From Pseudomonadota bacterium (GTDB lineage: Bacteria > Pseudomonadota > Gammaproteobacteria > UBA5335), in contig PKCW01000270.1 in NCBI GenBank assembly GCA_002862965.1, positions 1-18,980 on the forward strand: 18,980 nucleotides of DNA, read 5' to 3'. Position 1 is the stretch's first letter. Each line of letters opens with the position of its first letter. Shown here piece by piece: positions 794 through 18,980 of this stretch. Both the position numbers and the translations under genes were made by a program. The notes below the pieces were generated by a model that saw only the letters and a program-made list of their open reading frames with translations, did no database searches and was not told the origin of the DNA.

Positions 794-824
794 TTGACCT
801 TCCCACCGTAGGAACCCGCAGACT
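794..824 (+). promoter_or_regulatory. CueR-type promoter for the copA ATPase (19-bp spacer)
   Basis: TTGACC (794-799), a 19-base spacer beginning TTCCC and containing an imperfect dyad (TTCCCaccgtaGGAACC), and CAGACT (819-824) as -10. This mirrors the CueR-activated E. coli copA promoter in order and spacing. Transcription would begin near 831, so the ATPase must start at 851 or later and not at an upstream TTG. Confidence 0.75.
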
Positions 825-850
825 TGTTTACTGACCATTGCACCGGCGAG

Positions 851-3232
<2,382 letters not shown>

Positions 3233-3233
3233 C

Positions 3234-4356: not shown

Positions 4357-7320
4357 TCAGTCGTCCAGATCCAGATCCGGCTCCACCGGCGGTGGGACCA
4401 ACTTGATATCGATCGTGTAGTCCCCGAAACGCTTGATGTGGCTCGTCAGATAGGGGCTCAGGTAGGCCACTTGGGTGGAGGTGATCTTCCAGCCACTCTT
4501 GCGGAGGAGCCGAATCAGGCGGCTCTGCTGGACCGCATTCCAGCACATGACGGCGTTAGCGACGACATTGTTGTACTTGATCGCCTTTTCCTGTTCGACC
4601 GGGTCATTGCGAGCAATGACGCCCTCGCCGCCGAAGAACAGGTGCTTGGAAAACCCATTGAAGGCTTCGACCTTGTTCGTGGCTGCAGTGATCTGCTCGC
4701 GAAGTTGGAGGTCCGAGATATAGCGCAGCAGGAACAAGGTGCGCACGGTCGCCCCCAATTCCTTGAAGGCATGGTACAGCCGGTTCTTCCTGCTGGCGGA
4801 TCCAAGCTTGCGCAGCAGGGTGGACGCGGCCATGCGACCGTTGCGGATCGAAATCACTACCTGCATCAGGTCCTTCCAGTGCCGTTCAATCAGCGCCCAG
4901 TCGATGCGTTCCTTGAATATCGCATCGATATGGTCATAGCGCACCTTCGCGTCGGGCCGATAGAACCGGTAGTCCTTCCAGTTGCGAATGCGTGGCATCA
5001 GTTCAATTCCCAGAAGGTGTGCCAAACCGAACACGGTGTATGACTGCCCCTGGGTGTCCGCATGGATTTTTGTGGGCTGAAGGTCCGAAGTGTTCTTCAG
5101 CAGTCCGTCCAGGAGGTAGACGCCTTCCCATACGCCACAGGTAATGAACTGGCTGAAGAACGCAATATAGGTGTCGGAAACATGGTGATACGCGATGCCG
5201 CCGTAACCACCGTACCGAATGTGGCGCGACGCAATGAGGTTCTGTTCGTATAGTTCGTGCTGGGTTCCGTCAGCGGCAGCCGCCGAACCATCTCCCCAGA
5301 ACCGGGGCAGCGAAAGCCCCGCATAGAGATTAACGATGTCTCGGCTCGCAGCCTCAAGTTTGGGGCCGTCAATATGCCGTTGATTGACGAAGCCAAGTTC
5401 GTGGGCCGTAACTACCCCGCCCAAATGGCGTGACGCTTGAGCCGGGCCTAGATTGCAGCCGTAGGCAAATCCCGTAAGGACGTAGCGCTCGCTTGCGTTT
5501 TTCAGCTTCGGCTCTGAACCCGAGGCAGGTTGAAAATGCCGGGTCCAGTTCGACCAATGCTGCAAGTCGCAAAGAATCTGGATGACACTGACCTCGGACA
5601 TGCGCTCCACAATGGCGTTTGCCAGTTCCGGGACGCCGGCCGGAATGGGGCGGGCCTTATGTCGCTTGAGGATGGGAATACCATTGTCATCGATCGCCAG
5701 GGTCTGGTCGTCCATGTAGGCCCGATCGGTGAGCTCTGCAACGTGAGCCAGCCGGGTGCGCAACTCGTCTGCGAATTCAGCGGCCGTCGCCGGCAGGTTC
5801 AGTCGAGCGCAGTAATCGGGTATCTCCGGCTCGCACTCGGCCCAAGGCACAAGTTGTGCGCGATAGTCTCCGAAGGCCTCGGCGCCAACGGCGGCAATGT
5901 CCCCTGATTTGAGGTCATTGGCGAGCGCGCTGAAAACGCAGATCTCATAGAGCCGGCGCTCCATGAAGGGATCGCCCTGTGCCGGCTGCTGGACCAGCAG
6001 ATCGCGCCAGGCTTCCGTGGTAAACGACAGGTCTGATGACACGGGCAGCAATTGCGGCGTCCGATCGGGCATTGCCAAGAGGCCCTGCAGCGCCGTAATG
6101 AGCGCCATGTCTTCACTCGTGCTGTGCAATTCGATGGTACGCGCCATGCGAAAGAACAGGTTCCGATACGATTTGAACGGCCCGGGTAGCAGGCTCAAGT
6201 AGTTGTCGCCGTCATAGGCCTGCAGTTTCGTGCACTCGGCTAGCAGATCCTGCGCCCCGCCTTGATTCGTGACCAATCGGCGGATTTCACGACCGGCATC
6301 GGCATCGACCGGGTTGGTCAGCAGCAGGCGAGCGACATCGGCCATGGTGGCCCGAATGATTTCGTCCTTTTCCCGGAACTGATTGCGCAACGCATCCAGC
6401 GCGGCCTTGGCTTGGTGATGAATCTTGGCCATGCGTTGCACGAACATTTCGAGCAGATCGTCGCGCGCCTGGATGCGTGCGTCATGGAGGAGGCAGAGCA
6501 AGACAACATGACGCTTCAGCGGTGCAAATCGGCGCAGTTCGGAGGCATCCAGCTTGGCCGCCTCGCCGGCAAAGTGCCGGCGCTTGACGTCCGGAAGCCC
6601 CTCAAGCACCCCAGGGACATCAACGAGTCCATCGAGCATGTCGATATGATCGAGCAGCACCTTGAAATGCGTCTTGGAGTCCCGGCGTTCGCCGGGCTTG
6701 AGGGCGTTGAAGACGCTCTTGCCCCCGGACGGCACCTCAAGCAGGTCGTCCAGCCTGCAGCGGTCGTCTTCCGTCAGGCGTTCCGTGATCTGTGTGAAAT
6801 AGCGGCGGTTGACGAGCGCACGCAGGCGCCGCGTGAGGCGGTCGAGTGTCGAGAATGCAGGCAGCTCAACACGCTCCTGGGCCAGGTGTTCAATGGCGAC
6901 GTTGATGAGATCGGATGGATAGTCGAGCACCGCAGCGCGTTCTGCGACCACTTCCATCACGCCGCGGCGTTCGGCGTGACCATAGACCTGGATGCCCTGG
7001 TGGTCGCGGATGTCCCGTTGGTAGCGCAGCCAGGTGGTGTTGGGGTCCACGATCGCCGGCTTGAGTTCGCGCCGCAGTTTTAGCGAAGCGCGGACGTGTG
7101 CAATAACTGGCGCCGGAATCTCGGGCCACGTAGGAAAGTAACCCAGGCGCTGAAAGACTTTGAACATCACCGCGAAAGTGAGGCGATGGGGCAGGCTTTT
7201 GGTGAATCGCCGATTGATCCAATCGGCTTCCTCGGGAGTAGGGGTGAACTCAACAATCAGTTCGCGGCGTGTCGGGTTCGCGGACAAACGGGGATAAATA
7301 GTGCGATCGATCGCTCTCAT
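4357..7320 (-). CDS. tnpA: Tn3-family transposase TnpA
   Basis: A full-length 987-residue replicative transposase that cuts and joins the GGGG-type terminal repeats. The N-terminal DUF4158-like DNA-binding region (about residues 1-170) is followed by the large central part and the RNase H-like catalytic domain. The three acidic residues are visible: Asp677 in FWGDGS, Asp755 in HADTQGQS and Glu885 in NKVEAFNGF, with spacings of 78 and 130 residues, close to those known for Tn3 TnpA. The motif LFFGGEGVI after the Glu is also typical. The ATG at 7320 is chosen because the family-like sequence MRAIDRTIYPRL starts there and GAGGT lies five bases upstream; an upstream ATG at 7431 would add 37 low-complexity residues. 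No frameshift is seen, so it may be active. It is visibly less GC-rich than its flanks. Confidence 0.95.
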   Translation of the reverse strand: MRAIDRTIYPRLSANPTRRELIVEFTPTPEEADWINRRFTKSLPHRLTFAVMFKVFQRLGYFPTWPEIPAPVIAHVRASLKLRRELKPAIVDPNTTWLRYQRDIRDHQGIQVYGHAERRGVMEVVAERAAVLDYPSDLINVAIEHLAQERVELPAFSTLDRLTRRLRALVNRRYFTQITERLTEDDRCRLDDLLEVPSGGKSVFNALKPGERRDSKTHFKVLLDHIDMLDGLVDVPGVLEGLPDVKRRHFAGEAAKLDASELRRFAPLKRHVVLLCLLHDARIQARDDLLEMFVQRMAKIHHQAKAALDALRNQFREKDEIIRATMADVARLLLTNPVDADAGREIRRLVTNQGGAQDLLAECTKLQAYDGDNYLSLLPGPFKSYRNLFFRMARTIELHSTSEDMALITALQGLLAMPDRTPQLLPVSSDLSFTTEAWRDLLVQQPAQGDPFMERRLYEICVFSALANDLKSGDIAAVGAEAFGDYRAQLVPWAECEPEIPDYCARLNLPATAAEFADELRTRLAHVAELTDRAYMDDQTLAIDDNGIPILKRHKARPIPAGVPELANAIVERMSEVSVIQILCDLQHWSNWTRHFQPASGSEPKLKNASERYVLTGFAYGCNLGPAQASRHLGGVVTAHELGFVNQRHIDGPKLEAASRDIVNLYAGLSLPRFWGDGSAAAADGTQHELYEQNLIASRHIRYGGYGGIAYHHVSDTYIAFFSQFITCGVWEGVYLLDGLLKNTSDLQPTKIHADTQGQSYTVFGLAHLLGIELMPRIRNWKDYRFYRPDAKVRYDHIDAIFKERIDWALIERHWKDLMQVVISIRNGRMAASTLLRKLGSASRKNRLYHAFKELGATVRTLFLLRYISDLQLREQITAATNKVEAFNGFSKHLFFGGEGVIARNDPVEQEKAIKYNNVVANAVMCWNAVQQSRLIRLLRKSGWKITSTQVAYLSPYLTSHIKRFGDYTIDIKLVPPPVEPDLDLDD

Positions 7321-7633
7321 GGGCGACCTCGCAGTGCTCGCGAACAGCATGGGGCGGTCGAGGAGGCCGACCTGTCGTCGCGACGACGACGTCGAATCGG
7401 AAAAAGGAGCATCAGCAGTTCCTTCAGGCAATAGATGCCCGTGCCAGGCGAGCGAATCGCTTGACGGGCGGAAGGAAATGCAGGACGCTTGAGGCTGGAG
7501 TTGGTTCTCAAGAGTCTTGTCAGGGGTCCGCGTTGGCGCGCGGGCCCCTGCGCATTTCCGGGCCGGGAAATCTCGTTGGGAGCGATCAGGACGTCAGGGA
7601 TGCACCTCCTGGAGGTCTGGCGAGTGTGTTCGG
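7321..7633. other. Intergenic region with strong hairpin between tnpA and a small gene
   Basis: No gene is supported in these 313 bases. They contain a long perfect hairpin (7521-7550) and a short inverted repeat ACCTCC-T-GGAGGT (7604-7616). The region must hold the tnpA promoter on the minus strand, but no clear -35/-10 pair was picked out by eye. Tn3 elements often keep their resolution site upstream of tnpA, but no resolvase gene is present to confirm it. Confidence 0.5.
7521..7550. repeat. 12-bp-stem hairpin, CAGGGG...CCCCTG
   Basis: CAGGGGTCCGCG (7521-7532) pairs with CGCGGGCCCCTG (7539-7550) along all 12 positions, one being a G-T pair, around the six-base loop TTGGCG. Neither flank has a T-run, so it is not a canonical rho-independent terminator. 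It could be a factor-dependent stop, a recombination or protein-binding site, or an RNA structure. Confidence 0.75.
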
Positions 7634-7933: not shown

Positions 7934-7990
7934 GAATTGCGGGTCTGTGCGTGACAGCGCGCAGTGAGCCATGTTTTTATTGGCCCCGCC

Positions 7991-9034
7991 ATGCCCAAAA
8001 AGCCCAGCAAAAATGTCGCCGGTGCCGCAACCGGCACCAAGGCGAACCAAGGCGAACCAGAGCCCATACGCCGTCGTGGCCCAAAGGACCTGGTCCATCG
8101 GGCGCGCAGCCAGATCTGGCTGGCCATAGTGAAGTCCCACCGACGCACGCCTGGCGATCACCCGGCGATGGGGCGCTTCTTCCTGGGCGATGTCGAAGAG
8201 GCCGCGCGGGTGTTCGTTCGGATCGAGTACTACGCCTCGGACCCCGGTATTCCACGGCCCGGTAAGGACACCGTGGTTGAGCGTGTGGCCGCCAAGCCAG
8301 GCTTCGCGCATACGAAGCTGGTCTACGACAGCGCGTTGTGGCGCCTGCTTGGGCCGACCTTGCCCTCGCCGGACGAGCGCGAGGAAATGATCAATGAGGC
8401 AATCCGGCAACTCATCTTCGTCGAGCGCATGCAGGACCCCGCGCTCAGGCTGCTGGTGCGCGTGGCATCGATCTGCCGTCTGCCAACGCCCGCAAGCGCC
8501 TACCGGCGGGTGATTCGCCGTTTTGCACGCAAACGATCGATTACCTGTCTTCTGCTGCTGTGCCTGCTGTACCGTCGTGCGATCGAGGTGGGTGCGGTGG
8601 ACGAGGTGCGGATCCTGCGGGAGGGGGTGCTCGCTGCGGTCCGCCACTTCTGTAACCGCCCCGGCTTCAGTGGCGCCGCATTCACGTTGTTGCTGTTCCT
8701 GGTGCGCCGTCGCGTGCTTGCGGGCCAGAGTTCGCTGGAGCACACGTTGGAGATGCAACTCTGGGCGGAGGACGTCTTGGCCGACTGGAGCGTGCGTTGC
8801 ACGACACCGGAAGAGCACCAATGGCTGGAACGTCAGACCTGGCTGGTCGCGTGCGCGATCGAGAACCTCGAACAGACGCAGATCTTTGAGCGGACGTACG
8901 AATTTCCTGCTGAGATAGAGGCCCTGATCTGCGAGCGCGACGTGCGGCAGGCGGTGACACGCGATCCTACGAGTCGGCGGATCGAGCAGCAATGCGCGCT
9001 GCCCGAGGATGACGAGGCCGCCTTACCGACCTAG
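7991..9034 (+). CDS. Unrecognised 347-residue protein of the mobile region
   Basis: I do not recognise a family. From the ATG at 7991 the product has 347 residues; a GTG at 7964 would add nine. The first 35 residues are basic and low in complexity (PKKPSK..., RRRGPKD), then a predicted helical protein rich in Arg, Leu and Glu. Two hydrophobic stretches at about residues 180-190 and 225-235 (CLLLLCLLY, FTLLLFLV) are flanked by arginines and look more like buried or amphipathic helices than clear membrane spans. There is no signal peptide. No ribosome site is obvious. The stop codon TAG (9032-9034) overlaps the stop of the opposite-strand neighbour in one CTAG, so the two genes end tail to tail. 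It is probably cargo of the island. Confidence 0.72.
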   Translation: MPKKPSKNVAGAATGTKANQGEPEPIRRRGPKDLVHRARSQIWLAIVKSHRRTPGDHPAMGRFFLGDVEEAARVFVRIEYYASDPGIPRPGKDTVVERVAAKPGFAHTKLVYDSALWRLLGPTLPSPDEREEMINEAIRQLIFVERMQDPALRLLVRVASICRLPTPASAYRRVIRRFARKRSITCLLLLCLLYRRAIEVGAVDEVRILREGVLAAVRHFCNRPGFSGAAFTLLLFLVRRRVLAGQSSLEHTLEMQLWAEDVLADWSVRCTTPEEHQWLERQTWLVACAIENLEQTQIFERTYEFPAEIEALICERDVRQAVTRDPTSRRIEQQCALPEDDEAALPT

Positions 9035-9813
9035 GGCCCCCCGACCCTCTGGGAACGATCGAGCTGATGGCCCAGCAGAACCTCGACGCTGGGCCAGCCT
9101 GTCCAATAGAGCGCGCCCAGACGGGTCAACCGATGCACGAACCCCCGGCCCAGGGCGCTCTCCGGTTGTGGGTTATAGGGCGGGAACGAGCATCCTGTCC
9201 AGGCGCCGCTGGCCACCGTGGCGGCACGGCGGCGTAGCTCTTGATAGATGGTGTCGCGTAGACCGTCGGCTTGCGGTCCGTGCTGCAGAGCCATCGACGC
9301 GCCGCGTCGGACGGCAGCCCACGCGCAGTATCGCCACTGGGCCAGTGTCAGCACCGCCGTGCTTTCGCGATAGGCGAAGGCGACGTCCTGAGCCCAGTCC
9401 GCGCAGAAGCGGTGCTTGACCAATTGTTGCTCGAAGAAGCGTTCGGCTTCGCCGGAACCCAACTCCATCCAAAGCCGCAGCCGCTGGGCGGTAGCGAAGT
9501 CATCACGTTCAAGCGAGTCGAAATAGTCGTCCAACGCTTCGATCAGCCGCGCGGGTTCGTACACCGTCCATATCAGGCGCCATTGCAACCCCTCAATCGG
9601 TGTCGTCCTGGCGTCGGGCTTGACGTCCCATCGCGCTTCGGGCCAAGGCACTTCAATTACTCCACGTTCCAGCAGATACGCCATTACGACGAGCGTCATG
9701 CGTCGGGTCTGGGCGACCGGCAGACGGTGCTCCTGACCGGTCAGCAGCGCCCACAGGTACAGGCAGCCTTGCAAGCCGAGTTCATCGACGGTGGCCGGGG
9801 CAGAAGGCGCCAT
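9031..9813 (-). CDS. Unrecognised 260-residue protein, divergent from XRE regulator
   Basis: No family is recognised. The product is soluble-looking, with many Trp, Tyr and acidic residues, for example EALDDYFDSLERDDFATAQRLRLWMELGSGEAERFFEQQL around residues 90-130, suggesting a helical fold. There is no signal peptide and no catalytic motif that I can name. The ATG at 9813 is the first in frame; no ribosome site is apparent, so a leaderless transcript from the operator-containing region is possible. It is divergent from the XRE regulator across about 100 bases carrying a CTAAGA-ATA-TCTTAG site, which suggests repression by that regulator. Its 3' end overlaps the convergent gene by four bases. 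A defence, toxin or transfer-related role is possible but unsupported by the sequence. Confidence 0.72.
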   Translation of the reverse strand: MAPSAPATVDELGLQGCLYLWALLTGQEHRLPVAQTRRMTLVVMAYLLERGVIEVPWPEARWDVKPDARTTPIEGLQWRLIWTVYEPARLIEALDDYFDSLERDDFATAQRLRLWMELGSGEAERFFEQQLVKHRFCADWAQDVAFAYRESTAVLTLAQWRYCAWAAVRRGASMALQHGPQADGLRDTIYQELRRRAATVASGAWTGCSFPPYNPQPESALGRGFVHRLTRLGALYWTGWPSVEVLLGHQLDRSQRVGGP

Positions 9814-9912: not shown

Positions 9913-10269
9913 GTGGCGAATCGGACGGCAAAGCACCCAGTTTTTGCGCAGCGACTGGCGCAGGCGCGGGAACGCGCCGGCCTGTCGCAGACGCAACTCG
10001 GCGTGCTCGCCGGCCTGGACCCTTCCGTGGCCTCTCCCACCATCAATCAGTACGAACGCGGCAAGCACGAGCCCCAGCTCAAGCGAGCCAAGCGGTTAGC
10101 CGAGGTACTGGGCATTCCTCCGGCGTTTCTTTACACCGAAGACGACCTGCTTGCGGAGTTGCTGCTGCAATGGAACGACCTGACCATTCGTCAGAAGAAG
10201 GATCTGCTCAAGCAGATCGAGGCGGCGAAGGCGCCGAAACCAAAGCACCCAGCACGCAATGTGAAGTAG
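9913..10269 (+). CDS. XRE-family helix-turn-helix regulator
   Basis: A 118-residue cytoplasmic DNA-binding protein. The Cro/CI-type helix-turn-helix covers about residues 10-68: FAQRLAQARERAGLSQTQLG, then SPTINQYERGKHEPQ and LAEVLGIPPAFLY, a canonical XRE pattern. The rest is a short Lys-rich tail (QKKDLLKQIEAAKAPKPK). GTG 9913 is preferred because GGGGG (9903-9907) is five bases upstream; GTG 9907 would add two residues. The promoter at 9834-9862 with an embedded inverted repeat suggests autorepression and control of the divergent 260-residue gene. Similar small regulators occur in prophages, islands and toxin-antitoxin loci; which applies here is unclear. It converges on the buf operon, ending 68 bases from the bufC stop. 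Confidence 0.88.
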   Translation: MANRTAKHPVFAQRLAQARERAGLSQTQLGVLAGLDPSVASPTINQYERGKHEPQLKRAKRLAEVLGIPPAFLYTEDDLLAELLLQWNDLTIRQKKDLLKQIEAAKAPKPKHPARNVK

Positions 10270-10337
10270 CGTCAGCTGCGAGCCGACGCCTTGTGCGTCC
10301 GCGCACGTGGCTTATCCCTCAAGCTCGAGGCCTTGAT

Positions 10338-11165
10338 CTACTTAAGAGGGGTTACTCCGTCCAGTCCACGATGCTTTGCGGCCGCCTTGGTCGATACCCA
10401 GTGTGCGATCCAGCCTTCCTGAGCCCATCGCTGCATCAACTGCAGCGCAACCGAGGGAACCGACTGCGCGGCATGATCGGCCATCAGCAACTCGCACAGG
10501 TCAGCAAAGGTTCCGCCGGAGAGGAAGTGGTCGAGGCCAGTGGCCTCTTCAACATCCAGGGAGCGGTAACGGGTAATGCGTGTGGCATCGCGCCAGAGCA
10601 CCCACTCATGGCTCGTCGCGGGCGCGGCAGCGGGGGGCGTCCGCTCGTCCTTCAATGCCTGCCAGATCTCGACGCTATTCCACGCGGCCGAGTATAGCTG
10701 CAGGCTGGGCTGGAATCGCAGGCGCAGCTCCGGCCAGGCTTCGCTTGGCAGCGACTGCAGGCCGCTCCAGTCCGCGTAGGGGGCATCGGCCGCATCGAAG
10801 CTGTCGAGCAACCGACGCTCGAAGGCGGACAGTTCGGCGATTTGCGGGTGATCCGAAAAGGGCTCGGTCGTGCGTAGGTACTCGGACAGGCGGTCGCCAA
10901 ACTGCCGCAGCGAACGGTAGCGGGACGGGTGCGCCGCGATGTAACCGGTGCACAGTTGGTCCCACAAATCGTCGCCGAGGTAACGGCCGAGCTGGCGGTG
11001 GTCGTTGTCGAGCGCCTCGCGCAGACGCGCGCCGTAGGCGTGGGCGTAGATGTCCAGCCCGGTCTCGCGCGGTACGCGGGGCGTGGCCAGCTGCGCCAGC
11101 AATGTCTTGTCGCCCGCGGTCAGGGCCGCGAGGAAATGGCGCTGCAGGGTTGCCAGCGTTTCCAT
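10338..11165 (-). CDS. bufC: DUF2063 bufferin-maturation partner BufC
   Basis: The 275-residue protein has the N-terminal DUF2063 domain (LATLQRHFLAALTAGDK, then IYAHAYGARLREALDNDHRQL and the GRYLGDDLW region, residues about 3-95) once annotated as putative DNA-binding. In characterised bufferin systems such as those of Caulobacter, this type of protein is the partner of the DUF692 enzyme and is thought to bring the precursor peptide to it. The ATG at 11165 begins one base after the bufB stop (TGACATG), showing translational coupling. The C-terminal half (VALQLMQRWAQEGWI) resembles a winged-helix-like domain of such partners. It is the last gene of the buf operon and faces the island regulator. 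Confidence 0.88.
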   Translation of the reverse strand: METLATLQRHFLAALTAGDKTLLAQLATPRVPRETGLDIYAHAYGARLREALDNDHRQLGRYLGDDLWDQLCTGYIAAHPSRYRSLRQFGDRLSEYLRTTEPFSDHPQIAELSAFERRLLDSFDAADAPYADWSGLQSLPSEAWPELRLRFQPSLQLYSAAWNSVEIWQALKDERTPPAAAPATSHEWVLWRDATRITRYRSLDVEEATGLDHFLSGGTFADLCELLMADHAAQSVPSVALQLMQRWAQEGWIAHWVSTKAAAKHRGLDGVTPLK

Positions 11166-11166
11166 G

Positions 11167-12057
11167 TCAGGCCACGGCCACGGCGGGTGCGAGCGCCCGG
11201 GCATAAACGGTGCGTGCCATGTCGAGCTCCGCCACCAACTCCGCCAGCGGCGGGATATGGTCATCGCGCTCGATCATCGTGCTGATCGGGCCGAAGCGGC
11301 GGATGGCTGCCTCATACAGCGACCAGACCTGCGCCGGGACGTCGTGGTCGTGGGTGTCGATCACGTAGTCGCCATAGTCGCTGTGGCCGGCGAGGTGGAT
11401 CTGCCAGACCCGGTCGCCGGGGATGCCCGCCAGATAGTCCATCGGCGAGAACCCATGGTTGCGGGCGCTGACAATGATGTTGTTGACGTCCAGCAACAGG
11501 CGGCAGCCGCTGCGACGCGCGATCTCGGCCACGAACTCCCATTCGGGCATGGTCGAGGCGGCGTACTCAACGTAGGAACTGAGGTTCTCCAGCAGGATCT
11601 CCCGGCCGAGGAAGTCCTGCACCTGCTGCACCCGCGCCACGACGTGGGCGATGGCCGTCTCGCAATAGGGCAGGGGCAGCAGGTCGTGGCTGTTGATGCC
11701 GTCCACGCCGGTCCAGCACAGGTGATCGGACACCCAGGCCGGCTCGATCTCCTGCATCAACCGTTTAAGCGCCCGCAGGTAGTCCCGGTCGAGCGGATCG
11801 GTGCTGCCGATCGACAGTGAAACGCCGTGCATGGCCAGCGGGTAGCGCTCGCGAACCGCTTCCAGGTAGTGGCGGGGCTTGCCGCCGGCGACCATGAAGT
11901 TCTCGGAAATGATCTCGAACCAATCGACGGCCGGGGCATCCGCCAGCACGGATTCGTAGTGCTCGGTCCGCAGTCCCAGGCCGAACCCCAGCCACGGCCG
12001 GGACTCCGGCGCGGGTGCGCCGGAGTGTTGGCCGGTCGTCAGCAGGCCGTATTGCAT
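11167..12057 (-). CDS. bufB: DUF692 multinuclear iron enzyme BufB (MNIO)
   Basis: The 296-residue enzyme belongs to the DUF692 / multinuclear non-heme iron oxidative family, a TIM-barrel that uses an iron cluster and oxygen to modify cysteines of RiPP precursors; for bufferins the product is reported to be thiooxazole. Family motifs are visible in order: GLGLRTEHYESVL, the SENFM strand, MHGVSLSIGS, VSDHLCW, ENLSSYV, LLLDVNNI and IHLAGH, then THDHDVP, whose His, Asp and Glu residues are the likely iron ligands. The ATG at 12057 starts two bases after the bufA stop. The frame could extend upstream, but only through bufA in another frame. The immediate neighbour is its predicted substrate, and bufC follows. 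Confidence 0.94.
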   Translation of the reverse strand: MQYGLLTTGQHSGAPAPESRPWLGFGLGLRTEHYESVLADAPAVDWFEIISENFMVAGGKPRHYLEAVRERYPLAMHGVSLSIGSTDPLDRDYLRALKRLMQEIEPAWVSDHLCWTGVDGINSHDLLPLPYCETAIAHVVARVQQVQDFLGREILLENLSSYVEYAASTMPEWEFVAEIARRSGCRLLLDVNNIIVSARNHGFSPMDYLAGIPGDRVWQIHLAGHSDYGDYVIDTHDHDVPAQVWSLYEAAIRRFGPISTMIERDDHIPPLAELVAELDMARTVYARALAPAVAVA

Positions 12058-12059
12058 GT

Positions 12060-12521
12060 TCAGCCCGCGGAGCCGCCGACGTTGCCGCAGGTGGCCGCCG
12101 GCAGGGCGACGAAGCCCTGGCCCTTGCAACTGCCCTGGCCCTTGCAGGCGTTGCTCGCCGTCTTGCAGTCGTTGTGGCCCTTGCAGCTGTTGACACCGTT
12201 GCAGTGGATCAGATCGCTGGCGGCGACGGTCATGGTCATGCCGAGATCGACCACCTTGCCGCCGATCGCCTCACAGGCTGCAGCCGGTGCGGCGACGAAA
12301 CCCTGGCCTTTGCAACTACCCTGACCCTTGCACATGTTGCTCGCGGTCTTGCAGTCGTTATGGCCCTTGCACTGGTTGACGCCTGAGCAGTGCACAAGCT
12401 CGACGCTGCGCGCCTTGAGTTGTGCCTTCTGCCCGGCCGACACCGGGCTGGACACGGCCAGGCTCGCTGCCATCAAGGCCAGCGCGACGCCCGAAACGCC
12501 AGGCATGAGATTTGCTTTCAT
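12060..12521 (-). CDS. bufA: Bufferin precursor with two tandem six-cysteine units (BufA2-like)
   Basis: A 153-residue exported RiPP precursor, predicted to chelate copper in the periplasm after its cysteines are modified by BufB/BufC. The signal peptide (about residues 1-29) ends at VSA. Two near-identical units follow, each with Cys spacing C-x5-C-x5-C-x6-C-x5-C-x12-C: Cys 45, 51, 57, 64, 70, 83 and Cys 107, 113, 119, 126, 132, 145, an exact 62-residue repeat. Both contain CKGHNDCKTASN and CKGQGSCKGQGFVA. Most relatives I know have one such unit. The ATG at 12521 has AGGAG seven bases upstream. A SigF-like promoter lies 106-131 bases upstream. It resembles the BufA2 group more than the DUF2282 (BufA1) type. 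Confidence 0.92.
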   Translation of the reverse strand: MKANLMPGVSGVALALMAASLAVSSPVSAGQKAQLKARSVELVHCSGVNQCKGHNDCKTASNMCKGQGSCKGQGFVAAPAAACEAIGGKVVDLGMTMTVAASDLIHCNGVNSCKGHNDCKTASNACKGQGSCKGQGFVALPAATCGNVGGSAG

Positions 12522-12695
12522 GGATGATCTCCTGAGTGGACTGGTGAACCGTCTCGTCGAGCGAGCGAAACCTGGCGGGCTCGGTTGACGGGGCATGCAG
12601 CGGAAGCAGCCTCCGCATTGACAGCATTCGTTCGAACGAGGGGATTGGTTACGCCCACGGGCGGACCGAACGTACTTCGCCTGAGCAACCGCAAT
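12522..12695 (-). promoter_or_regulatory. Intergenic leader upstream of bufA
   Basis: This 174-base gap is the only sizeable break in the minus-strand gene train. It holds an ECF-type promoter match (12627-12652), a perfect 12-bp palindrome TCGTTCGAACGA (12628-12639) overlapping that promoter, and a GCGGA...TCCGC inverted repeat (12600-12616) near the expected transcription start. The inferred 5' leader is about 100 nt. Confidence 0.6.
12627..12652 (-). promoter_or_regulatory. ECF SigF-type promoter, GTAACC-N16-CGAA
   Basis: On the minus strand GTAACC (12652-12647) is followed by exactly 16 bases and CGAA (12630-12627). This equals the consensus I recall for the Caulobacter heavy-metal-responsive ECF factor SigF and related EcfF factors, whose targets include bufferin operons. 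No sigma factor gene is in the window. Confidence 0.65.
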
Positions 12696-13112
12696 TCATC
12701 TCTTCCCGGACCCCAGCGTCAGCAGCCGGTCCTGGTCGCGCAGCAGGAACAGCGCCAGGCACGCGGCGAGCATCGGCCAGGCGGCGAAGAACAGCAGGTT
12801 GACGCCCTCGTACGGGGCCAGGTATTGCCGCCACGACGACAAGGTCGAGATGGCATGCAGGAGCAGCACCGCACCATAGGTCCAGGTGCGGGCGAGGCCC
12901 GCCAGGAACATCAGCACCAGCACCGTCTGGGCCAGGCCCAGGACCAGGAAGGCGGACTCGCCGAACCCGGACAAGTGGTAGAACCCCTCGAACACCCTCG
13001 CCGAATGCTCCGGCCGGATCAGCTTGTCCAGCGCCCACGGCAGCATGACGGCGGCCACGCCCAGTCGCAGCGCGAGCAGCGAAATTTCGAGTTTTTTTGA
13101 TGCGGGGATCAT
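12696..13112 (-). CDS. DoxX-family membrane protein (BufD-like)
   Basis: The 138-residue protein has four hydrophobic helices (about residues 9-27, 52-70, 78-92 and 105-123) and the DoxX-like pattern LALRLGVAAVMLPWALDKLIRPE near the N-terminus. DoxX proteins are inner-membrane proteins of uncertain redox-related function and frequently accompany DUF692 bufferin operons. Here it also adjoins the arsenosugar genes, so its role could belong to either. The ATG at 13112 overlaps the stop of the hydrolase upstream by ATGA, showing it is part of the upstream operon, while 174 bases separate it from bufA. The family is confident, the function is not. Confidence 0.85.
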   Translation of the reverse strand: MIPASKKLEISLLALRLGVAAVMLPWALDKLIRPEHSARVFEGFYHLSGFGESAFLVLGLAQTVLVLMFLAGLARTWTYGAVLLLHAISTLSSWRQYLAPYEGVNLLFFAAWPMLAACLALFLLRDQDRLLTLGSGKR

Positions 13113-13912
13113 GGCTTTTCTCCTTCAGGATGCCGGTGAGTCGCTGCGATTTCGTCCCATCGCAGCTTCTGGTAGTCGAAGCCCGACGCCAGGCTCGGCT
13201 TGACGATCTCGAAATACGGCGACACGTCGAAATCCCGCGGTGCGAACAGGCTGTAGTGGCGCACGCGCAGCAGTTCGTCCACGCATCCCGGGCAGGAGGG
13301 CGTGGAAGCGTCCTGCCTGTGCAGGGTCGGAAGTACCGGATAGCGGATGGACTGGAAGGCCTGCGCGATCAGGGTCGAGCAGATGGCCCGCGTCGGATCG
13401 CCGCTGCCGAAGGCCAGCGCCCGCCGGCGCAGCGATGCGGGCAACGGCGGGGTCGGGAACAGGAAACGTGCCAGGTCGAACACGTTGCGCAGGTCGTAGC
13501 GTGCGCCCAGACGCTGGATCGCATAGCCGGTGAGCTTGCGCGCCGCGGCCCCGTCCAGGCCGACCGGGCGGCAGATCCGGGTGTGGAGGCCCGCGAACTC
13601 CTCCAGGCCGACGCTGCGCACGCCGTCGACGGTATCGGCCTCGATGAAGCAGTGGCGCGGATCGCCGCCCGCCTGCGCCAGGTGATCGCCGACGTAGAGC
13701 GCGGCATGGGACCAGGTGGATTGGGTCAGGTACTTGATCGCCGAACTGATCCGGCTGTGCCCCTCCACCAGCAGGACGTCGCCCGGGCGCAGGGTCGCCC
13801 GCAACAATGCCAGCGGTGTCTCGGGGGCGACGCCGTGCACATGGGTGCGCTTGGAGAGGAACCGGGCCAGCCGCTGCCCCAGCCACGCCAACGGCTTGTT
13901 GATCAGGAGCAT
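13109..13912 (-). CDS. YiiX/YebB-like permuted NlpC/P60 cysteine hydrolase
   Basis: The 267-residue protein matches circularly permuted papain-like enzymes of the YiiX/YebB group. The catalytic His is His69 in STWSHAALYVGD and the nucleophile Cys178 in AICSTLIAQAF, in the His-before-Cys order of permuted NlpC/P60 proteins. The GDVLLVEGHSRISSAIKYLT stretch just before the His is family-typical. Such enzymes act on peptides or on lipid or acyl bonds; the substrate here is unknown. The first ATG at 13912 follows an AGGTGAGG ribosome site. It sits nine bases after the AhpD-like gene and overlaps the DoxX gene by ATGA, so it is an operon member. A lipid-acting hydrolase would fit an arsenolipid-related pathway, but that is conjecture. 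Confidence 0.82.
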   Translation of the reverse strand: MLLINKPLAWLGQRLARFLSKRTHVHGVAPETPLALLRATLRPGDVLLVEGHSRISSAIKYLTQSTWSHAALYVGDHLAQAGGDPRHCFIEADTVDGVRSVGLEEFAGLHTRICRPVGLDGAAARKLTGYAIQRLGARYDLRNVFDLARFLFPTPPLPASLRRRALAFGSGDPTRAICSTLIAQAFQSIRYPVLPTLHRQDASTPSCPGCVDELLRVRHYSLFAPRDFDVSPYFEIVKPSLASGFDYQKLRWDEIAATHRHPEGEKP

Positions 13913-13921
13913 GACCTCACC

Positions 13922-14479
13922 TCATGTGCGGTACCCGCTCACCTCGGCTTCGTCGAAGCTGACGCCCAGCCCGAGCGCGATGCGATTGACGAAGTTGAAA
14001 TAGGCGACGATCAGGTTGATCAGCAGGATGTCCGGATCGGCGTAGCCGTGGCGTCGCAAGGTTTCGATGTCGTCTGGCGATACCGTGGACGGTGCGCCGG
14101 TGAGCTTGCTGGCGTAGGCGGCCAGAGCCTGATCGGCAGGCGTCAGCGACGCCGGTACCTCGCCGAGGGCGATCGCCTCCAGCAACGCCGGATCCCGCAG
14201 ATAGCGGGAAAGCGCCTCGGCGTGATGGGCGACGCAGTAGTTGCATTGATTGACCCGCGAAACGACGACGGCGATCAGCTCACGCTGGGCGCGCGACAAC
14301 CCGCCGGAGGCGAACATCAGATCCATGTAGAGCGCCAGGTGTGCCTGCAGCGACGACGGCCGCAGGCTGTGGACCTTCAGAATGTTCGCGACCTTGCCGC
14401 GCTGCTGCTCCAACGCTCGGTATTGGTGCAGCAACTCACCTTCGGCTTCGTCCGGCCCGATTTCTTTGATCCAGCTCAT
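13922..14479 (-). CDS. AhpD-like peroxidase-related carboxymuconolactone decarboxylase-family protein
   Basis: The 185-residue protein carries the AhpD active-site pattern Glu-x11-Cys-x2-Cys-x3-His: Glu67, Cys79, Cys82, His86 (RELIAVVVSRVNQCNYCVAHH). This group uses the CxxC pair in thiol-based reduction of peroxides, or related redox steps. It is likely cytoplasmic, all-helical and oligomeric. The ATG at 14479 follows AGGAG with six bases of spacing; the gap to the DUF2798 gene is 38 bases. In this operon it may protect against peroxide stress or take part in thiol chemistry with arsenic, neither shown by the sequence. The length agrees with the peroxidase-related enzyme subfamily. Confidence 0.88.
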   Translation of the reverse strand: MSWIKEIGPDEAEGELLHQYRALEQQRGKVANILKVHSLRPSSLQAHLALYMDLMFASGGLSRAQRELIAVVVSRVNQCNYCVAHHAEALSRYLRDPALLEAIALGEVPASLTPADQALAAYASKLTGAPSTVSPDDIETLRRHGYADPDILLINLIVAYFNFVNRIALGLGVSFDEAEVSGYRT

Positions 14480-14517
14480 GCAAGACTCCTGATGGGGTGT
14501 GGCGCGGCCACTAACTT

Positions 14518-14781
14518 TCAGTGCACGCGTCGCGGAAGCCGGGCGATACACATCGACATGGCCTTGGCGACGCGCAAGGCCAGAGGGCGGGTCAGGTAGG
14601 CGGCGACCACCGCCACCGGCAGGGATACCGCCCATGCGCGCAGGAAAGCCACTGCGACGCCGGCCATCGAGGGCGAGTTGACCCAGGTCGCGGTGCAGGT
14701 CACGAAGGCGGACATGAAGAAGGCCATGCAACCCGGCAATAGCCGGTCGACATGCAGGCTGTTGGGTGCCGACGCGTTCAT
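14518..14781 (-). CDS. DUF2798 family two-helix membrane protein
   Basis: The 87-residue product has two hydrophobic helices (about residues 17-37 and 43-65) with the pattern LPGCMAFFMSAFVTCTATWVN followed by FLRAWAVSLPVAVVAAYL, which matches the DUF2798 family of unknown function. It overlaps the arsenate reductase gene by ATGA, so it is co-translated with it. It carries no evident catalytic residues. A role as a small transporter or membrane partner of the arsenic genes cannot be tested from the sequence. Confidence 0.8.
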   Translation of the reverse strand: MNASAPNSLHVDRLLPGCMAFFMSAFVTCTATWVNSPSMAGVAVAFLRAWAVSLPVAVVAAYLTRPLALRVAKAMSMCIARLPRRVH

Positions 14782-15308
14782 GCCTTCTCCGTCTCCGATA
14801 TTTCCCGTGCGATCGCATTCAACTCGCCCGCGATCGCGGCAGGGGACAGAGTGCCGAACGGAATCGAAAGCAGGCGCCGCAGCCTGCTTGTGATCAGATC
14901 CGCCGTGTGTCTGAAGGCCAGCGCGATGGTCCGATCGTCACCTGACGCTGCCGACGGGTCCCTGCAGGCCCAGTTCGCCGTGACCGGTGCACCCGGCCAG
15001 ACGGGACAGGCCTCGCGCGCAGCGCTGTCGCAGACGGCAATGACGATGTCCATCGGAATCGTCCCCGGCTGAACAAACTCTTCCCACGACTTGCTCCGTA
15101 ATGCGGCTACGTGACAACCGCGCTCCCGTAGCGTTTCCAAGGCATGGCGATTGACCGTTCCGGAAGGATGACTGCCCGCGCTGTGGCCGATAAGCCGACC
15201 TTCCCCGAGCTTCGTCGCCAAGCCTTCAGCCAAGATGCTGCGCGCAGAGTTGTGTGTACACAGGAACAGGACATTGACCGCACTACACGACCCGGGCTGG
15301 ACGCTCAT
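14778..15308 (-). CDS. arsC: ArsC, low-molecular-weight-phosphatase-type arsenate reductase
   Basis: The 176-residue enzyme reduces arsenate to arsenite, the substrate for methylation. It has the low-molecular-weight phosphatase P-loop CTHNSAR (Cys17 to Arg23, CX5R) near the N-terminus and the second cysteine pair in VCDSAAREACPVWPG (Cys93, Cys101), which fits the thioredoxin-coupled class in which electrons pass through three cysteines. SHPSGTVNRHALETL is the usual intermediate stretch. The ATG at 15308 overlaps the ArsS stop by ATGA. It is somewhat longer than the roughly 130-residue S. aureus enzyme, with a C-terminal extension after the P-loop domain. It would supply As(III) to the methyltransferase at the far end of the operon. 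Confidence 0.9.
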   Translation of the reverse strand: MSVQPGSCSAVNVLFLCTHNSARSILAEGLATKLGEGRLIGHSAGSHPSGTVNRHALETLRERGCHVAALRSKSWEEFVQPGTIPMDIVIAVCDSAAREACPVWPGAPVTANWACRDPSAASGDDRTIALAFRHTADLITSRLRRLLSIPFGTLSPAAIAGELNAIAREISETEKA

Positions 15309-16261
15309 GACAAAGCTCCTCCGCAACTGGAACCCTGGCCGGCGGTGCAGCCGTAGCAATGTCCCGCCACGCCGATCCCGCGAGGAACCTCGCCATCGAG
15401 AAGGTCCCGCAAGTGCGTGGGCTGCTCGCGGCCGGCCAGCGGCAGTTTCAGCATCTGGTTGAAGTCGCAGTCGTACAGAGTGCCGTCGTAGCCGACGCTG
15501 AGGGTCGACCGGCACATCACCGAATCCAGGTTCTCGTCGCGATGCGCGTGTCGTAGTGTCGCCATGTACGCCTGGAACTGGCCCTTGGAGACCAGCCAGG
15601 AGCCGAAACGCTGGATCGGCATGTTCGCCAGCGCGTACAGGCGGTTGAAGACGATGCCGAAGTTGTCGCCGAGCAGCCGGTGGTAGTCCTGCTCGAGTTT
15701 TTCCTGGTTCGGAGGCAGGAAGGCGCCGTTGGGGTTGTAGACCAGGTTGAGTTGCAGCGGGCTGCCGGGCTGTCCATAGCCGAGTTCGTTGAGCCGACGC
15801 AGGGCACGGATCGAGCTTTCGAAGACGCCGTCGCCACGCTGCTCATCGACGTTTTCCTGGCTGTAGCACGGCAGCGAGGCGACGATCTCTACCCGGTGCG
15901 CGGCGAGGAATTCCCCGACCCACTCGTAGCCGGGCTCTTCCATGATGGTGGGGTTGAGCCGGTCCATCACGTGCAGGCCGAGCGCGCGTGCTTGTTCGAC
16001 CAGCCAGCGGAACAGCGGGTTCATTTCCGGAGTGCCGCCGGTCAGGTCCAGAGTGGTCGCGTCGAGCCGTTGGGCCACCGCCAGCGCCAGGCGCATGGTG
16101 TCCTCGTCCATGCGCTCGGTCCGCCGCGGACCGGCGTTGACATGGCAGTGGATGCAGCTGAGGTTGCAGCGGTAGCCGAGGTTGAGCTGCAGCGTGGTGA
16201 CTGCGCCGCGCTCGATCCGCGGGAAATCACTGTCTTTCAGTAGGGGCCAGGTGTCGTGCAT
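15305..16261 (-). CDS. arsS: ArsS, arsenosugar biosynthesis radical SAM enzyme
   Basis: The 318-residue radical SAM enzyme transfers a 5'-deoxyadenosyl group to methylated arsenic, the committed step to arsenosugars. The [4Fe-4S] motif is Cys32-x3-Cys36-x2-Cys39 (RCNLSCIHCH), followed by the glycine-rich LDLTGGTPEMNP. The C-terminal cysteines (CYGCTAGQGSSCGG, residues 302-315) and the CRSTLSVGYDGTLYDCDFNQ segment belong to the DUF3641-type domain diagnostic for this family, which probably binds a further cluster. The ATG at 16261 follows the desaturase gene by five bases; extension upstream would run through that gene. It acts with the ArsM-like protein and glycosyltransferases encoded upstream in the same operon. 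Confidence 0.95.
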   Translation of the reverse strand: MHDTWPLLKDSDFPRIERGAVTTLQLNLGYRCNLSCIHCHVNAGPRRTERMDEDTMRLALAVAQRLDATTLDLTGGTPEMNPLFRWLVEQARALGLHVMDRLNPTIMEEPGYEWVGEFLAAHRVEIVASLPCYSQENVDEQRGDGVFESSIRALRRLNELGYGQPGSPLQLNLVYNPNGAFLPPNQEKLEQDYHRLLGDNFGIVFNRLYALANMPIQRFGSWLVSKGQFQAYMATLRHAHRDENLDSVMCRSTLSVGYDGTLYDCDFNQMLKLPLAGREQPTHLRDLLDGEVPRGIGVAGHCYGCTAGQGSSCGGALS

Positions 16262-16266
16262 GGGGT

Positions 16267-17091
16267 TCAATGTCCACTCGTGGAGGGGCGCACATCGCCG
16301 ACCAGCGACAGCCGCAACAGGGCCGGCAACGTCTGGTCTGCGGGGGCGCGGAACTGGGGCAGGCCGATGGTCATGCTGGGGTGGCCATCGCGTGGCTGCG
16401 CGATGCGGGACGCGAAGAGGCGATCCCAGAGCGTCAGCAGGTTGCCGTAGTTGCTGTCGGTCTCGTTCCGGTGCACGGAATGGTGCACGCGGTGCCAGTC
16501 CGGGGTGACCAGCACAAGGCGAAGGCGCTGATCCCACTGTCCGGGCAATGCGACATCGGCGTGGGTGATCAGGGCGAAGGTGGCCAGCAGCACTTCATAC
16601 AACGCCACTGCTGCAGTCGACGGCCCCAGGGCGATGATGACGGCGAACTTGTACAGCATCGACAGCAGGATTTCGGCCGGATGGAAGCGCAGTCCCAGCG
16701 TCACCTCGAACTGCGTGTCGCTGTGATGCACGCGATGGATGCGCCACAACCAGGGCAGTTGGTGGAACCAGCGGTGCTGCCAGTAGATGGCCAGATCCAT
16801 TACGGCAATCGCCAGCGCGGACTCGATGACGCCCGGCCAGGGCGTGAGCGCGAGCAATCCGAAACCGTGGTTCTGCACGATCGCGGCGAAGGACACCGCA
16901 CTCACCGGCAGGGCCAGATAGACGATGGCGGTGCCGATTGCAGCCAAGCCAAGATTGCGCCAGCGACGGCGCGGCGGCGAGGGGTCTCCACGCCGCGGCC
17001 AGAAATGTTGGCAGGCCAACAGCGCCACCAGCAGCATCAGAACGACTGCCAGCCGGATCAGTCCTGGCGTCAGGAGCGCATTGCCGTTCAT
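16267..17091 (-). CDS. Sterol desaturase / fatty acid hydroxylase superfamily membrane enzyme
   Basis: A 274-residue integral membrane di-iron enzyme. The histidine clusters of the superfamily are all present: HRWFH (His106-His110), HRVHH (119-123) and HRVHH (200-204), plus RFHPAE at 135-140. Hydrophobic helices are at about residues 11-27, 48-72, 90-104 and 145-178. Relatives hydroxylate or desaturate lipids, sterols or alkyl-glycerols using O2. It overlaps the DUF2064-like glycosyltransferase by ATGA and precedes ArsS by five bases, so it is part of the arsenosugar operon. The substrate is unknown; an arsenic-containing lipid or sugar is an inference from position. All metal ligands are kept, so it should be active. 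Confidence 0.9.
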   Translation of the reverse strand: MNGNALLTPGLIRLAVVLMLLVALLACQHFWPRRGDPSPPRRRWRNLGLAAIGTAIVYLALPVSAVSFAAIVQNHGFGLLALTPWPGVIESALAIAVMDLAIYWQHRWFHQLPWLWRIHRVHHSDTQFEVTLGLRFHPAEILLSMLYKFAVIIALGPSTAAVALYEVLLATFALITHADVALPGQWDQRLRLVLVTPDWHRVHHSVHRNETDSNYGNLLTLWDRLFASRIAQPRDGHPSMTIGLPQFRAPADQTLPALLRLSLVGDVRPSTSGH

Positions 17092-17768
17092 GCGCAAGGC
17101 TCCGGGGGCGTCGATGAAGTCAGCCACTGCAGCAGGCGAACCTGAGCGGCGGTCGGAGCGTCGATCGCAGCCAGTGACGCAACCGCGAAGGGAATGTCAT
17201 CGGCCGTGTCGATATCCCGCAGCGGCTCCAGCTCCAACCAGCGTCCACCGTCACGCATGGAGTGGGTGAACTCCATGGCCGTGTCCGGTGCGCTGTAACG
17301 CACGTTGGTCCAGGCCCGATCCGGAAGGGGACGGTTTGCACCAAACAGCCAGAATCCCCCATCGTCGGCACGACCCAGCACCATCCGGGAGTCCACACAA
17401 CTCAGCCATTCCGTCGCCTTGCGCAGCGATGCGGCGATGTTCTGGGGTGCGTCGGCGCCGACGAGAAGTGCCGCGTGGTGCCGTTTGCGTAGCTGGCGAT
17501 AGACATGGGCCATGCGTTCGCCCAGCGAGCCCTCGCCTTGGGACAGGTGTGGCAGGTCGAGCCAGGCATCGGAATGCAGCGCGGCGGTCTCCGCGACCGC
17601 CCAGTACGGCTGCACGCCGCCGGCCTGCTGCGCCACCGAGGCCACGGCTTCGGCCGAAAGCAGGTACAGCGCTTCGGCGCAGCGACGCCCGATGCCCGGC
17701 CACAGGCGGGTCTTCACCGGCGACAACGCCGGCGTCTTGACAAAGATGGCGATCCCGCAGTTCATCAT
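17088..17768 (-). CDS. TIGR04282-type arsenosugar glycosyltransferase (DUF2064)
   Basis: The 226-residue protein resembles the DUF2064 / TIGR04282 family, a GT-A-like glycosyl- or nucleotidyltransferase fold found with arsenosugar genes. Seen in the sequence are IAIFVKTPALSPVKTRLWPG at the N-terminus, the GADAPQ motif, and ADDGGFWLFGANRPLP, which are typical. It is soluble and cytoplasmic. The start at 17768 overlaps the stop of the TIGR04283 gene (ATGATGA), with a second Met directly after; the annotation uses the first. It probably acts in later steps of arsenosugar assembly; the exact sugar donor and acceptor are not known from the sequence. Confidence 0.88.
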   Translation of the reverse strand: MMNCGIAIFVKTPALSPVKTRLWPGIGRRCAEALYLLSAEAVASVAQQAGGVQPYWAVAETAALHSDAWLDLPHLSQGEGSLGERMAHVYRQLRKRHHAALLVGADAPQNIAASLRKATEWLSCVDSRMVLGRADDGGFWLFGANRPLPDRAWTNVRYSAPDTAMEFTHSMRDGGRWLELEPLRDIDTADDIPFAVASLAAIDAPTAAQVRLLQWLTSSTPPEPCA

Positions 17769-18433
17769 GGCGACACCTGCCGGGAGAACGTGCGCGCCTG
17801 CATGAGCGTCAGCCGCAGGTGCTCGCGCGTGATCGACCACCAGCCGTACCGCGCGTACTTGCGTGCGCTCGTGTGCAGGGGAGCACTGGTAGGGCGAAGT
17901 GGAACGTCCAGCGATCGCGCCATCCAGACCAGCGCGTGGTCCTCGCTGCCGGCGAGGTGTTCGTCGAATCCGCCGATGGCGTCGAAGATCCGACGTGACA
18001 TCAGGAAACCCTGGTCGCCGAACGGCAGTCCCAGCCAGCGGCTGCGAAGACGCGCCCCGAGCGTGTTGAGCCACATCAGCGAGGGACCATCGTCCAGGAA
18101 CCGCAGGTCGAAGTAGCCGATCGCATCAGCATTGGCGCGGACGAAGCGGTGCAGGCCAGCAATGGTGGTGGCGCCGATGTGCGAGTCCGCGTGCAGGAAC
18201 CACAGCCAGTCCGCGCAGGTGGCCGCGGCGCCGGCATTGAGCTGCCGTGCCCGTCCTGGCAGCGAGGGGACCAGCGTGATATTGGACGACAGGTTCTCCA
18301 CGTCGCCTGCGTCGGACTGCGTCAGGACGAGAGCGATCTCCTGGGCGCCGGCGGCATCCAGTTGCGGCAACAGCCCACGCCAGGCTTCATCGCCTGGACC
18401 GGCGGGCACGACGATGGCAAGGCTCGGCGACAT
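17765..18433 (-). CDS. TIGR04283-type arsenosugar glycosyltransferase (GT2)
   Basis: The 222-residue family 2 glycosyltransferase has an Ile/Val-rich N-terminal strand (LAIVVPAG), the donor-binding motif WLWFLHADSHIG in which the HADS stands where the DxD of GT2 enzymes lies, GLPFGDQGFLMSR and the catalytic-type GGFDEHLAGSEDHAL. These match the TIGR04283 group encoded next to arsS. It would add a sugar to an arsenic intermediate or related molecule. The ATG at 18433 is three bases after the ArsM-like stop and its end overlaps the next gene by ATGA. There is no signal peptide; it is cytoplasmic or membrane-associated. Confidence 0.92.
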   Translation of the reverse strand: MSPSLAIVVPAGPGDEAWRGLLPQLDAAGAQEIALVLTQSDAGDVENLSSNITLVPSLPGRARQLNAGAAATCADWLWFLHADSHIGATTIAGLHRFVRANADAIGYFDLRFLDDGPSLMWLNTLGARLRSRWLGLPFGDQGFLMSRRIFDAIGGFDEHLAGSEDHALVWMARSLDVPLRPTSAPLHTSARKYARYGWWSITREHLRLTLMQARTFSRQVSP

Positions 18434-18436
18434 GGC

Positions 18437-18980
18437 TCAGCAGCAACTGCCGGTGGCACAGGAAGACGGATCCACCGCAGGGGCGCAGTCGAACAGGCCG
18501 AAATGCGCGCCCTTGTCGCCCAGCAGGTCGAAGTGCCCGGCGAAGCGCGACGCGGCGAGCATGTCGAAGGTGTTGCCGCACACTCGCAGCGGCTTTCCGG
18601 TCTCGAAGCGATGGTGGTCGTCGAGCACGAAGGCGTGCGGGTGACCGGCGATGCTGCCGCGGTAGGTCGCGATCTGGCCGAAGTCCTCGCAGCGGTCCTC
18701 CAGCGACAGGCGGAAGGCGCGCATCGTCATCGAGCGGAAGTTGACCATGCCGATGTGGGCCTCGATCTGCGCATCCAGCAGCGGGATCGGCGACTGGCTG
18801 ACGCAGCGCACGTCCGCGCAACCCAAGCGGCCCATGATCCGGCGGAAATCCTCCACGTACAGTGCGCCCGACAGGCACTCGCCCAGCAGCACGGGATCGG
18901 TGCGCAATGCGTCGGGAATGCGCCGGTCGGCGAACACGTCGGAGAAGTACAGCTCGCCGCCAGGCTTGAGCACGCGCAAG
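18437..18980 (-). CDS. ArsM-like methyltransferase of arsenosugar operon (partial, N-terminus outside window)
   Basis: Only the last 180 or so residues are in the window; the frame is open to the edge. The part seen begins in the methyltransferase core (VLKPGGELYFSDVFADRR) and continues with DPVLLGECLSGALYVEDFRRIM, the usual C-terminal part of As(III) S-adenosylmethionine methyltransferases linked to arsS. The end carries CGNTFDML, FDLLGD and a Cys-rich tail (SSCATGSCC) with a CC pair that could bind arsenic. It would convert arsenite to methylated species for ArsS. Family confidence is good, but the N-terminal cysteines that define ArsM cannot be checked here. GTs and ArsS follow in the same operon. 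Confidence 0.85.
   Translation of the reverse strand, partial: LRVLKPGGELYFSDVFADRRIPDALRTDPVLLGECLSGALYVEDFRRIMGRLGCADVRCVSQSPIPLLDAQIEAHIGMVNFRSMTMRAFRLSLEDRCEDFGQIATYRGSIAGHPHAFVLDDHHRFETGKPLRVCGNTFDMLAASRFAGHFDLLGDKGAHFGLFDCAPAVDPSSCATGSCC

Follow-up and report, generated by a model that had tools for sequence, protein, structure and literature searches.

The window analysed here is the whole 18,980-nucleotide stretch of contig PKCW01000270.1, from a gammaproteobacterium of the GTDB lineage UBA5335. The bufferin genes bufA, bufB and bufC lie on its minus strand, preceded co-directionally by an arsenosugar-type gene set. On the other side of the bufferin genes lies a CopA-CueR pair, so the window holds two copper systems. 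The features are the following.

824-3704, plus strand: copper ATPase of the CopA type (TIGR01511, 594.8 bits, cut-off 397), directly followed by a CueR regulator frame (TIGR02044, 180.6 bits, cut-off 147.4)
4357-7431, minus strand: transposase of the Tn3 family, apparently full-length, lying between the two copper systems (NF033527, 710.5 bits, cut-off 500)
7964-9034 and 9031-9813: two long, convergent open reading frames with overlapping ends, without a Pfam or NCBIfam match at E 0.001
10338..11165, minus strand: bufC, DUF2063 (PME-type) partner protein (Pfam PF09836, 65.8 bits, cut-off 27.2)
11167..12057, minus strand: bufB, MNIO-family bufferin maturase of 296 residues with an E263-R-D265-D266 motif (NF050167 MNIO_BufB, 393.3 bits, cut-off 310)
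12060..12521, minus strand: bufA, two-core BufA2 (Buf2) bufferin precursor of 153 residues, from its reading frame and cysteine pattern
12273..12389, minus strand: first (N) six-cysteine core of BufA, residues 45-83 (genome search match 12252-12491, 88.7 bits)
12087..12203, minus strand: second (C) six-cysteine core of BufA, residues 107-145 (genome search match 12066-12224, 74.7 bits)
12696..13112, minus strand: DoxX/MauE-like small membrane protein (MauE match below threshold, 20.1 bits, cut-off 27)
13109-18979, minus strand: the arsenosugar-type gene set, made up of ArsS, the TIGR04283-like glycosyltransferase, DUF2064, the peroxidase-related enzyme and the ArsC-like and partial ArsM-like frames
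Upstream of bufA, minus strand: ArsS (TIGR04167, 438.8 bits, cut-off 300)
Upstream of bufA, minus strand: TIGR04283-like glycosyltransferase (156.9 bits, below the cut-off of 182)
Upstream of bufA, minus strand: partial ArsM-like frame (56.5 bits, below the cut-off of 400)
Upstream of bufA, minus strand: LMWPc/ArsC-like frame
Upstream of bufA, minus strand: C92-type amidase, peroxidase-related enzyme (TIGR01926) and DUF2798
Upstream of bufA, minus strand: fatty-acid-hydroxylase-like gene and DUF2064 frame

Between the last base of the bufA stop (12060) and the first base of bufB (12057) lie 2 bases, and between the end of the bufB stop (11167) and the start of bufC (11165) lies 1, as given in the preliminary description of the sequence. 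Gaps this short make translational coupling of bufABC likely. A 174-base gap separates bufA from the DoxX/MauE-like gene upstream, to whose product NCBIfam gave no match. This gene, called DoxX-like for its position and look, is a plausible candidate accessory of the bufferin operon. A scan of 10000-13200 revealed no sigma-70-like site (0.2 expected) and two terminator-like sites versus 2.0 expected, and the window has no Rfam match at gathering scores.

BufA, whose strand the preliminary description leaves unnamed, begins with a signal-peptide-like stretch, followed by core 1 (C45-C83), a linker of 23 residues, core 2 (C107-C145) and a brief tail. The cysteines are residues 45, 51, 57, 64, 70 and 83 in core 1 and residues 107, 113, 119, 126, 132 and 145 in core 2. 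Both cores fit the spacing C-x5-C-x5-C-x6-C-x5-C-x12-C that had been described, with starts 62 residues apart, and the claimed similarity of the residues between the cysteines is borne out by 38 identities among 49 aligned residues. At the DNA level, 111 of 147 bases are identical, and the codons that differ comprise 11 synonymous and 11 non-synonymous ones. When the mature part of 124 residues, whose cut after residue 29 was set by eye, was shuffled 20,000 times, two such units never appeared. The N-terminus, judged in the same way, displays a Lys near the start, a hydrophobic stretch and small residues before the likely cut. The signal region, about residues 1-29, has no lipobox cysteine by eye and is putatively of Sec type; a crude lipobox pattern was found in 25 of the 120 listed BufA homologues.

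The NCBIfam model NF050166 (Cu_RiPP_BufA2) matches BufA at 154 bits against a cut-off of 60, in two stretches. The 12 cysteines fall into two equal units, in line with the earlier claim of an internally duplicated core in a bufferin precursor and with the 6 or 12 conserved cysteines of BufA2 (Buf2). The adjoining MNIO (BufB) and DUF2063 (BufC) genes expected for this family are present. Pfam DUF2282 is also passed (28.9 bits, cut-off 22.4), but weakly beside NF050166, and the four-cysteine pattern of Buf1 does not occur in BufA, which has six cysteines per unit. Buf1 (DUF2282), which is MNIO-matured and bears thiooxazoles as predicted for the window BufA, has a related fold (PMC12452194). Judged by sequence, BufA fits the 12-cysteine subgroup of Buf2, with two six-cysteine domains per chain.

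This subgroup has been described by Antoine et al. (2025), according to whom 90% of Buf2 precursors have 6 cysteines and the others 12; the family was originally named Buf_6/12Cys (PMC12452194). In the same report, the 12-cysteine form is modelled as duplicated six-cysteine domains, and the two modelled Buf2 include WP_077285100 of Cognaticolwellia aestuarii (PMC12452194, Fig. 3h legend); a two-core locus of C. aestuarii (L043) is among the relatives that we fetched. We see no architectural difference between these 12-cysteine bufferins and the window BufA; the lineage and the neighbourhood differ. Single-core Buf2 precursors have the same core and maturation genes as the window, with one core only. 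In a weakly resolved tree, single cores (n=25) separate from two-core ones (3 label changes versus 22.1 after shuffling).

The preliminary description regarded one core as the usual BufA2 form. The published 90% agrees with this, and single cores dominate our class-wide sample. However, the novelty that it implied for the two-core form does not hold, as the 12-cysteine form is published as about 10% of Buf2 (PMC12452194) and is widespread in Gammaproteobacteria. The window gene is a genuine two-core bufferin and a further example of this minority form. In this sample of 370 genomes, which counts the window's among them, 70 have a BufA2 match over the cut-off. By hand, we counted 101 over-cut-off rows in 98 reading frames among those listed. 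Two of these frames are regular two-core frames (the window's and one in genome G122), two are irregularly expanded, and the remaining 94 have a single match, which is a rough count with most frames known by match only and with a list that ends among the weak matches. The irregular frames (L104, G299:C18:9800-11300; L103, G308:C3:159800-162300) encode BufA2-like precursors with 10 and 13 cysteines, respectively, in which extra short Cys-Lys-Gly-type repeats inside one core represent another route of bufferin expansion.

Of 7,999 candidates scored in a protein search with BufA, 5,942 were relatives, and 120 of these were listed. Two intact units are present in 118 of the 120; the other two (P0028 and P0080) keep one intact unit, the first core being damaged in both. 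At the genome level, 80 of 232 confirmed loci were examined, and 79 of them encode two cores in one frame, whereas L076 has two separate single-core genes. Both sets came from a two-core query and are uninformative on prevalence. The start-to-start spacing of the cores is 60-63 residues in all 190 distinct two-core proteins; these were picked by a strict pattern, which fixes their cysteine conservation by construction, and 118 of 120 is the fairer figure. Meanwhile, tandem separate single-core bufA genes are found at L076, L100, L101 and L102, and in each of the four pairs, by eye, one gene has a lipoprotein-like start and the other a plain Sec-type start. Bufferin gene clusters with tandem precursor genes are known (PMC12452194).

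A recent duplication in the window's lineage finds no support. At silent sites, the two window cores diverge from each other by 0.445, which is not less than the divergence from the nearest other N core (0.408, L022), both being rough values from 33 codons and from comparison loci that lack the DNA of the closest protein relatives. The next protein relative among the listed matches (P0002, 79% identity) also carries both cores. In 9 of 80 proteins (the window's and those of 79 loci), the two cores lie nearer to each other at silent sites than any other N core does, most clearly in L004 (0.142), which hints at occasional homogenisation between cores. Separate single ancestries for all N cores and all C cores gain no clear support. 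The core tree (95 rows and 36 columns, made of 25 single cores and of 35 two-core proteins selected from the 190 to cover their diversity) shows some clustering by position, far from two clades. The N labels take 21 changes versus 28.6 when shuffled (as low in 1 of 500), the C labels 20 versus 28.4 (0 of 500), and 67 of 92 branches are open. Mean core identity is 0.787 within proteins, 0.744 between N cores, 0.729 between C cores and 0.718 between N and C cores of different proteins. In 13 of the 190 proteins, no N core of another protein exceeds the own C core in similarity to the N core.

The two cores may alternatively descend from a fusion of two tandem bufA genes instead of an intragenic duplication, an origin that would leave the function the same. 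The tandem single-core genes give some ground for this idea, those at L076 lying in the same frame with about 33 bases from the stop to the next ATG. However, the linker between the cores does not look by eye like a remnant signal peptide, and the constant spacing in the two-core proteins suggests one old event. The 36-column trees do not tell duplication from fusion. We regard a fusion as unlikely, though worth keeping in mind.

The unusual feature of the window bufferin is its neighbourhood, with the arsenosugar set, the CopA-CueR pair and the Tn3 transposase. We searched the loci of the 80 relatives for the neighbour genes by tblastn at E <= 1e-5, with flanks of at most 8 kb as far as the contigs reached. 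ArsS, ArsM, ArsC-like, glycosyltransferase, C92, CMD, CopA and CueR were found in none of them, and the sole neighbour match was a weak one to the fatty-acid hydroxylase at L044. DoxX was not found by this search either, a result that may not count, as the protein is possibly too divergent for it. ArsS itself is common, 25 genomes out of 56 (with the window's among them) having it over the cut-off. From other genomes, 15 stretches that surround ArsS were searched, 10 being no longer than 3.9 kb and five longer (four of these at the same places), and no Buf gene was found. A conserved arsenosugar-bufferin linkage is not supported by these stretches or by the 80 relatives. A text search of the literature pairing DUF692 with arsenosugar, in that wording alone, found nothing. 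No Tn3 terminal repeats were recognised among 25 listed of the 29 weak inverted-repeat pairs in the window.

Such a neighbourhood would suit an operon directed at a different metal or metalloid from copper, such as arsenic. ArsS, the glycosyltransferase and the ArsM-like and ArsC-like frames stand co-directionally upstream, and roles for other metals are allowed in the literature (PMC12452194). Nevertheless, we consider this improbable, since the arsenic genes were found at none of the 80 relatives' loci within the flanks searched, the CopA-CueR pair lies in the same window, and copper is the metal acted on by the bufferins studied so far. Copper stays the preferred metal.

Among nine genomes of the order, the window's included and several under 90% complete, BufA2 is found only in the window's genome, and the named rows among the closest listed homologues belong to Arenimonas, Luteimonas, Lysobacter and Thermomonas. 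Together with the Tn3 transposase, this distribution makes a horizontal gain of the bufferin operon plausible, a reading qualified by the fragmented, 82.2%-complete assembly, in which the contig may be misbinned. Plasmid records matching BufA number 17, none over 80% or more of the protein. The best is a 1.24-Mb Pseudoalteromonas replicon that matches residues 33-152 in one piece, spanning both cores, in a stretch without annotation. The window's genome has three BufB matches over the cut-off and, besides the window bufA, three Buf1-type matches (contigs C29, C68 and C162). The Buf1-type precursors at C29 and C162 adjoin BufB genes; the one at C68 (L003, G000:C68:510-737) lies on a contig without a BufB match.

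Of the 80 loci fetched with the bufA query, 79 contain BufB and 78 contain BufC. Among solved MNIO-type proteins, the window BufB aligns best with 3bww (6.4e-48), next with 8hci and then with MbnB structures, and the Asp266 of its E-R-D-D motif stands at the Phe of 3bww (E-R-D-F). Cys-Lys maturases have an Asp at the position of FonB Phe250, modelled as contacting the substrate Lys (PMC13097082). Following the E-R-D motif, the Asp266 column would be the FonB Phe250 column. At this site, the two-core set of 80 loci, which includes the tandem genes of L076 as well as L105, a possible duplicate of L044, has Asp in 58, Ala in 13 and Gly in 7, with 2 unreadable; the single-core set of 21 loci has Asp in 5, with 16 unreadable. 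With Asp in only 58 of 78 readable two-core loci, an Asp-Lys contact is not obligatory. Co-variation of this residue with the number of Cys-Lys motifs is slight (mean 6.3 of 8 with Asp, 5.6 with Gly, 5.7 with Ala), is uncorrected for relatedness, and was set aside. In the EGKCG-repeat captophorins (oxazolin and fontiphorin), MNIO and DUF2063 proteins put 5-thiooxazoles on multiple repeats; they differ from the window system in having Lys-Cys instead of Cys-Lys, short repeats and a Phe at the maturase selectivity site (PMC13097082).

Selection acts alike on the two cores, dN/dS being 0.063 for the N core and just as low for the C core (0.063) over 90 locus pairs from 79 loci (both cores together 80-98.5% identical; the pairs share sequences and are not independent). 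Because the same strong purifying selection is seen on each, both cores are probably processed, and the two-core bufferin of the window is probably functional. Equal constraint and the fixed spacing together support the expectation that both cores work.

All four central cysteines of both window cores are followed by Lys. Over the 118 proteins, a Lys comes directly after the central cysteines, in their order, 97, 95, 79 and 108 times in the N core and 110, 108, 91 and 116 times in the C core. The Lys after the fourth cysteine is the least kept (31 of 79 loci in the N core, 23 of 79 in the C core), which may point to a different handling of that site. In the same proteins, the first cysteine is mostly followed by Ser, Tyr or Ala in the N core and by Met, Tyr or Phe in the C core, and the last cysteine mostly by Gly, Ala or Ser. 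In Buf1, the central cysteines are modified and the outer two are disulfide-bonded, and Buf2 modifications had not been identified at the time of that account (PMC12452194). By analogy with Buf1, thiooxazoles are most to be expected at the four central cysteines in either core, and the outer pair probably forms a disulfide, which predicts eight thiooxazoles and two disulfides in the window BufA.

On the other hand, only one core may be modified, probably the N-terminal one nearer to the recognition region, with the other acting as an unmodified thiol/disulfide domain. Preliminary results involve the signal peptide in Buf1 recognition (PMC12452194), and the second core lies about 60 residues further off. 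The equally strong purifying selection argues against this idea, as does the Cys-Lys motif, which is somewhat better kept in the second core of the 118 proteins; in the 79 loci, the second core keeps it better than the first at the second and third cysteines, equally well at the fifth and less well at the fourth. Furthermore, both homologues with a broken unit (2 of the 120 listed) have the first core broken, and seven sites are modified in another thiooxazole peptide, FonA (PMC12668002). We judge modification of a single core to be very unlikely and prefer the maturation of both.

We therefore propose the following working of the two-core Buf2 bufferin, which we hold to be highly probable as a whole. 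BufA would be synthesised in the cytoplasm, and its N-terminal part would be recognised by the BufB-BufC complex. This complex would turn cysteines of both cores into 5-thiooxazoles, most likely at C51, C57, C64, C70 and at C113, C119, C126, C132. The peptide would leave via Sec, the outer cysteines would form the disulfides C45-C83 and C107-C145, and the mature BufA would sequester copper in the periplasm at about twice the sites of the single-core form. Of this scheme, the gene anatomy, the sequence-based family membership and the conservation of and selection on the two cores are shown by the analysis, and the recognition, chemistry, choice of sites, disulfides, export, metal and stoichiometry are inferred. 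For the window BufA itself, cysteine modification and a doubled copper capacity are plausible.

It seems highly improbable that the two-core operon has been drawn into a co-directional metal(loid) island with the arsenosugar genes and acts on both arsenic and copper stress; if so, the bufferin of this island would be a double-headed peptide for two metals. The window member adds little further to a form that is already published. Two-core bufferins in general offer a natural test of how an MNIO maturase proceeds along an extended substrate, and of whether the capacity for metal grows in step with the number of cores.
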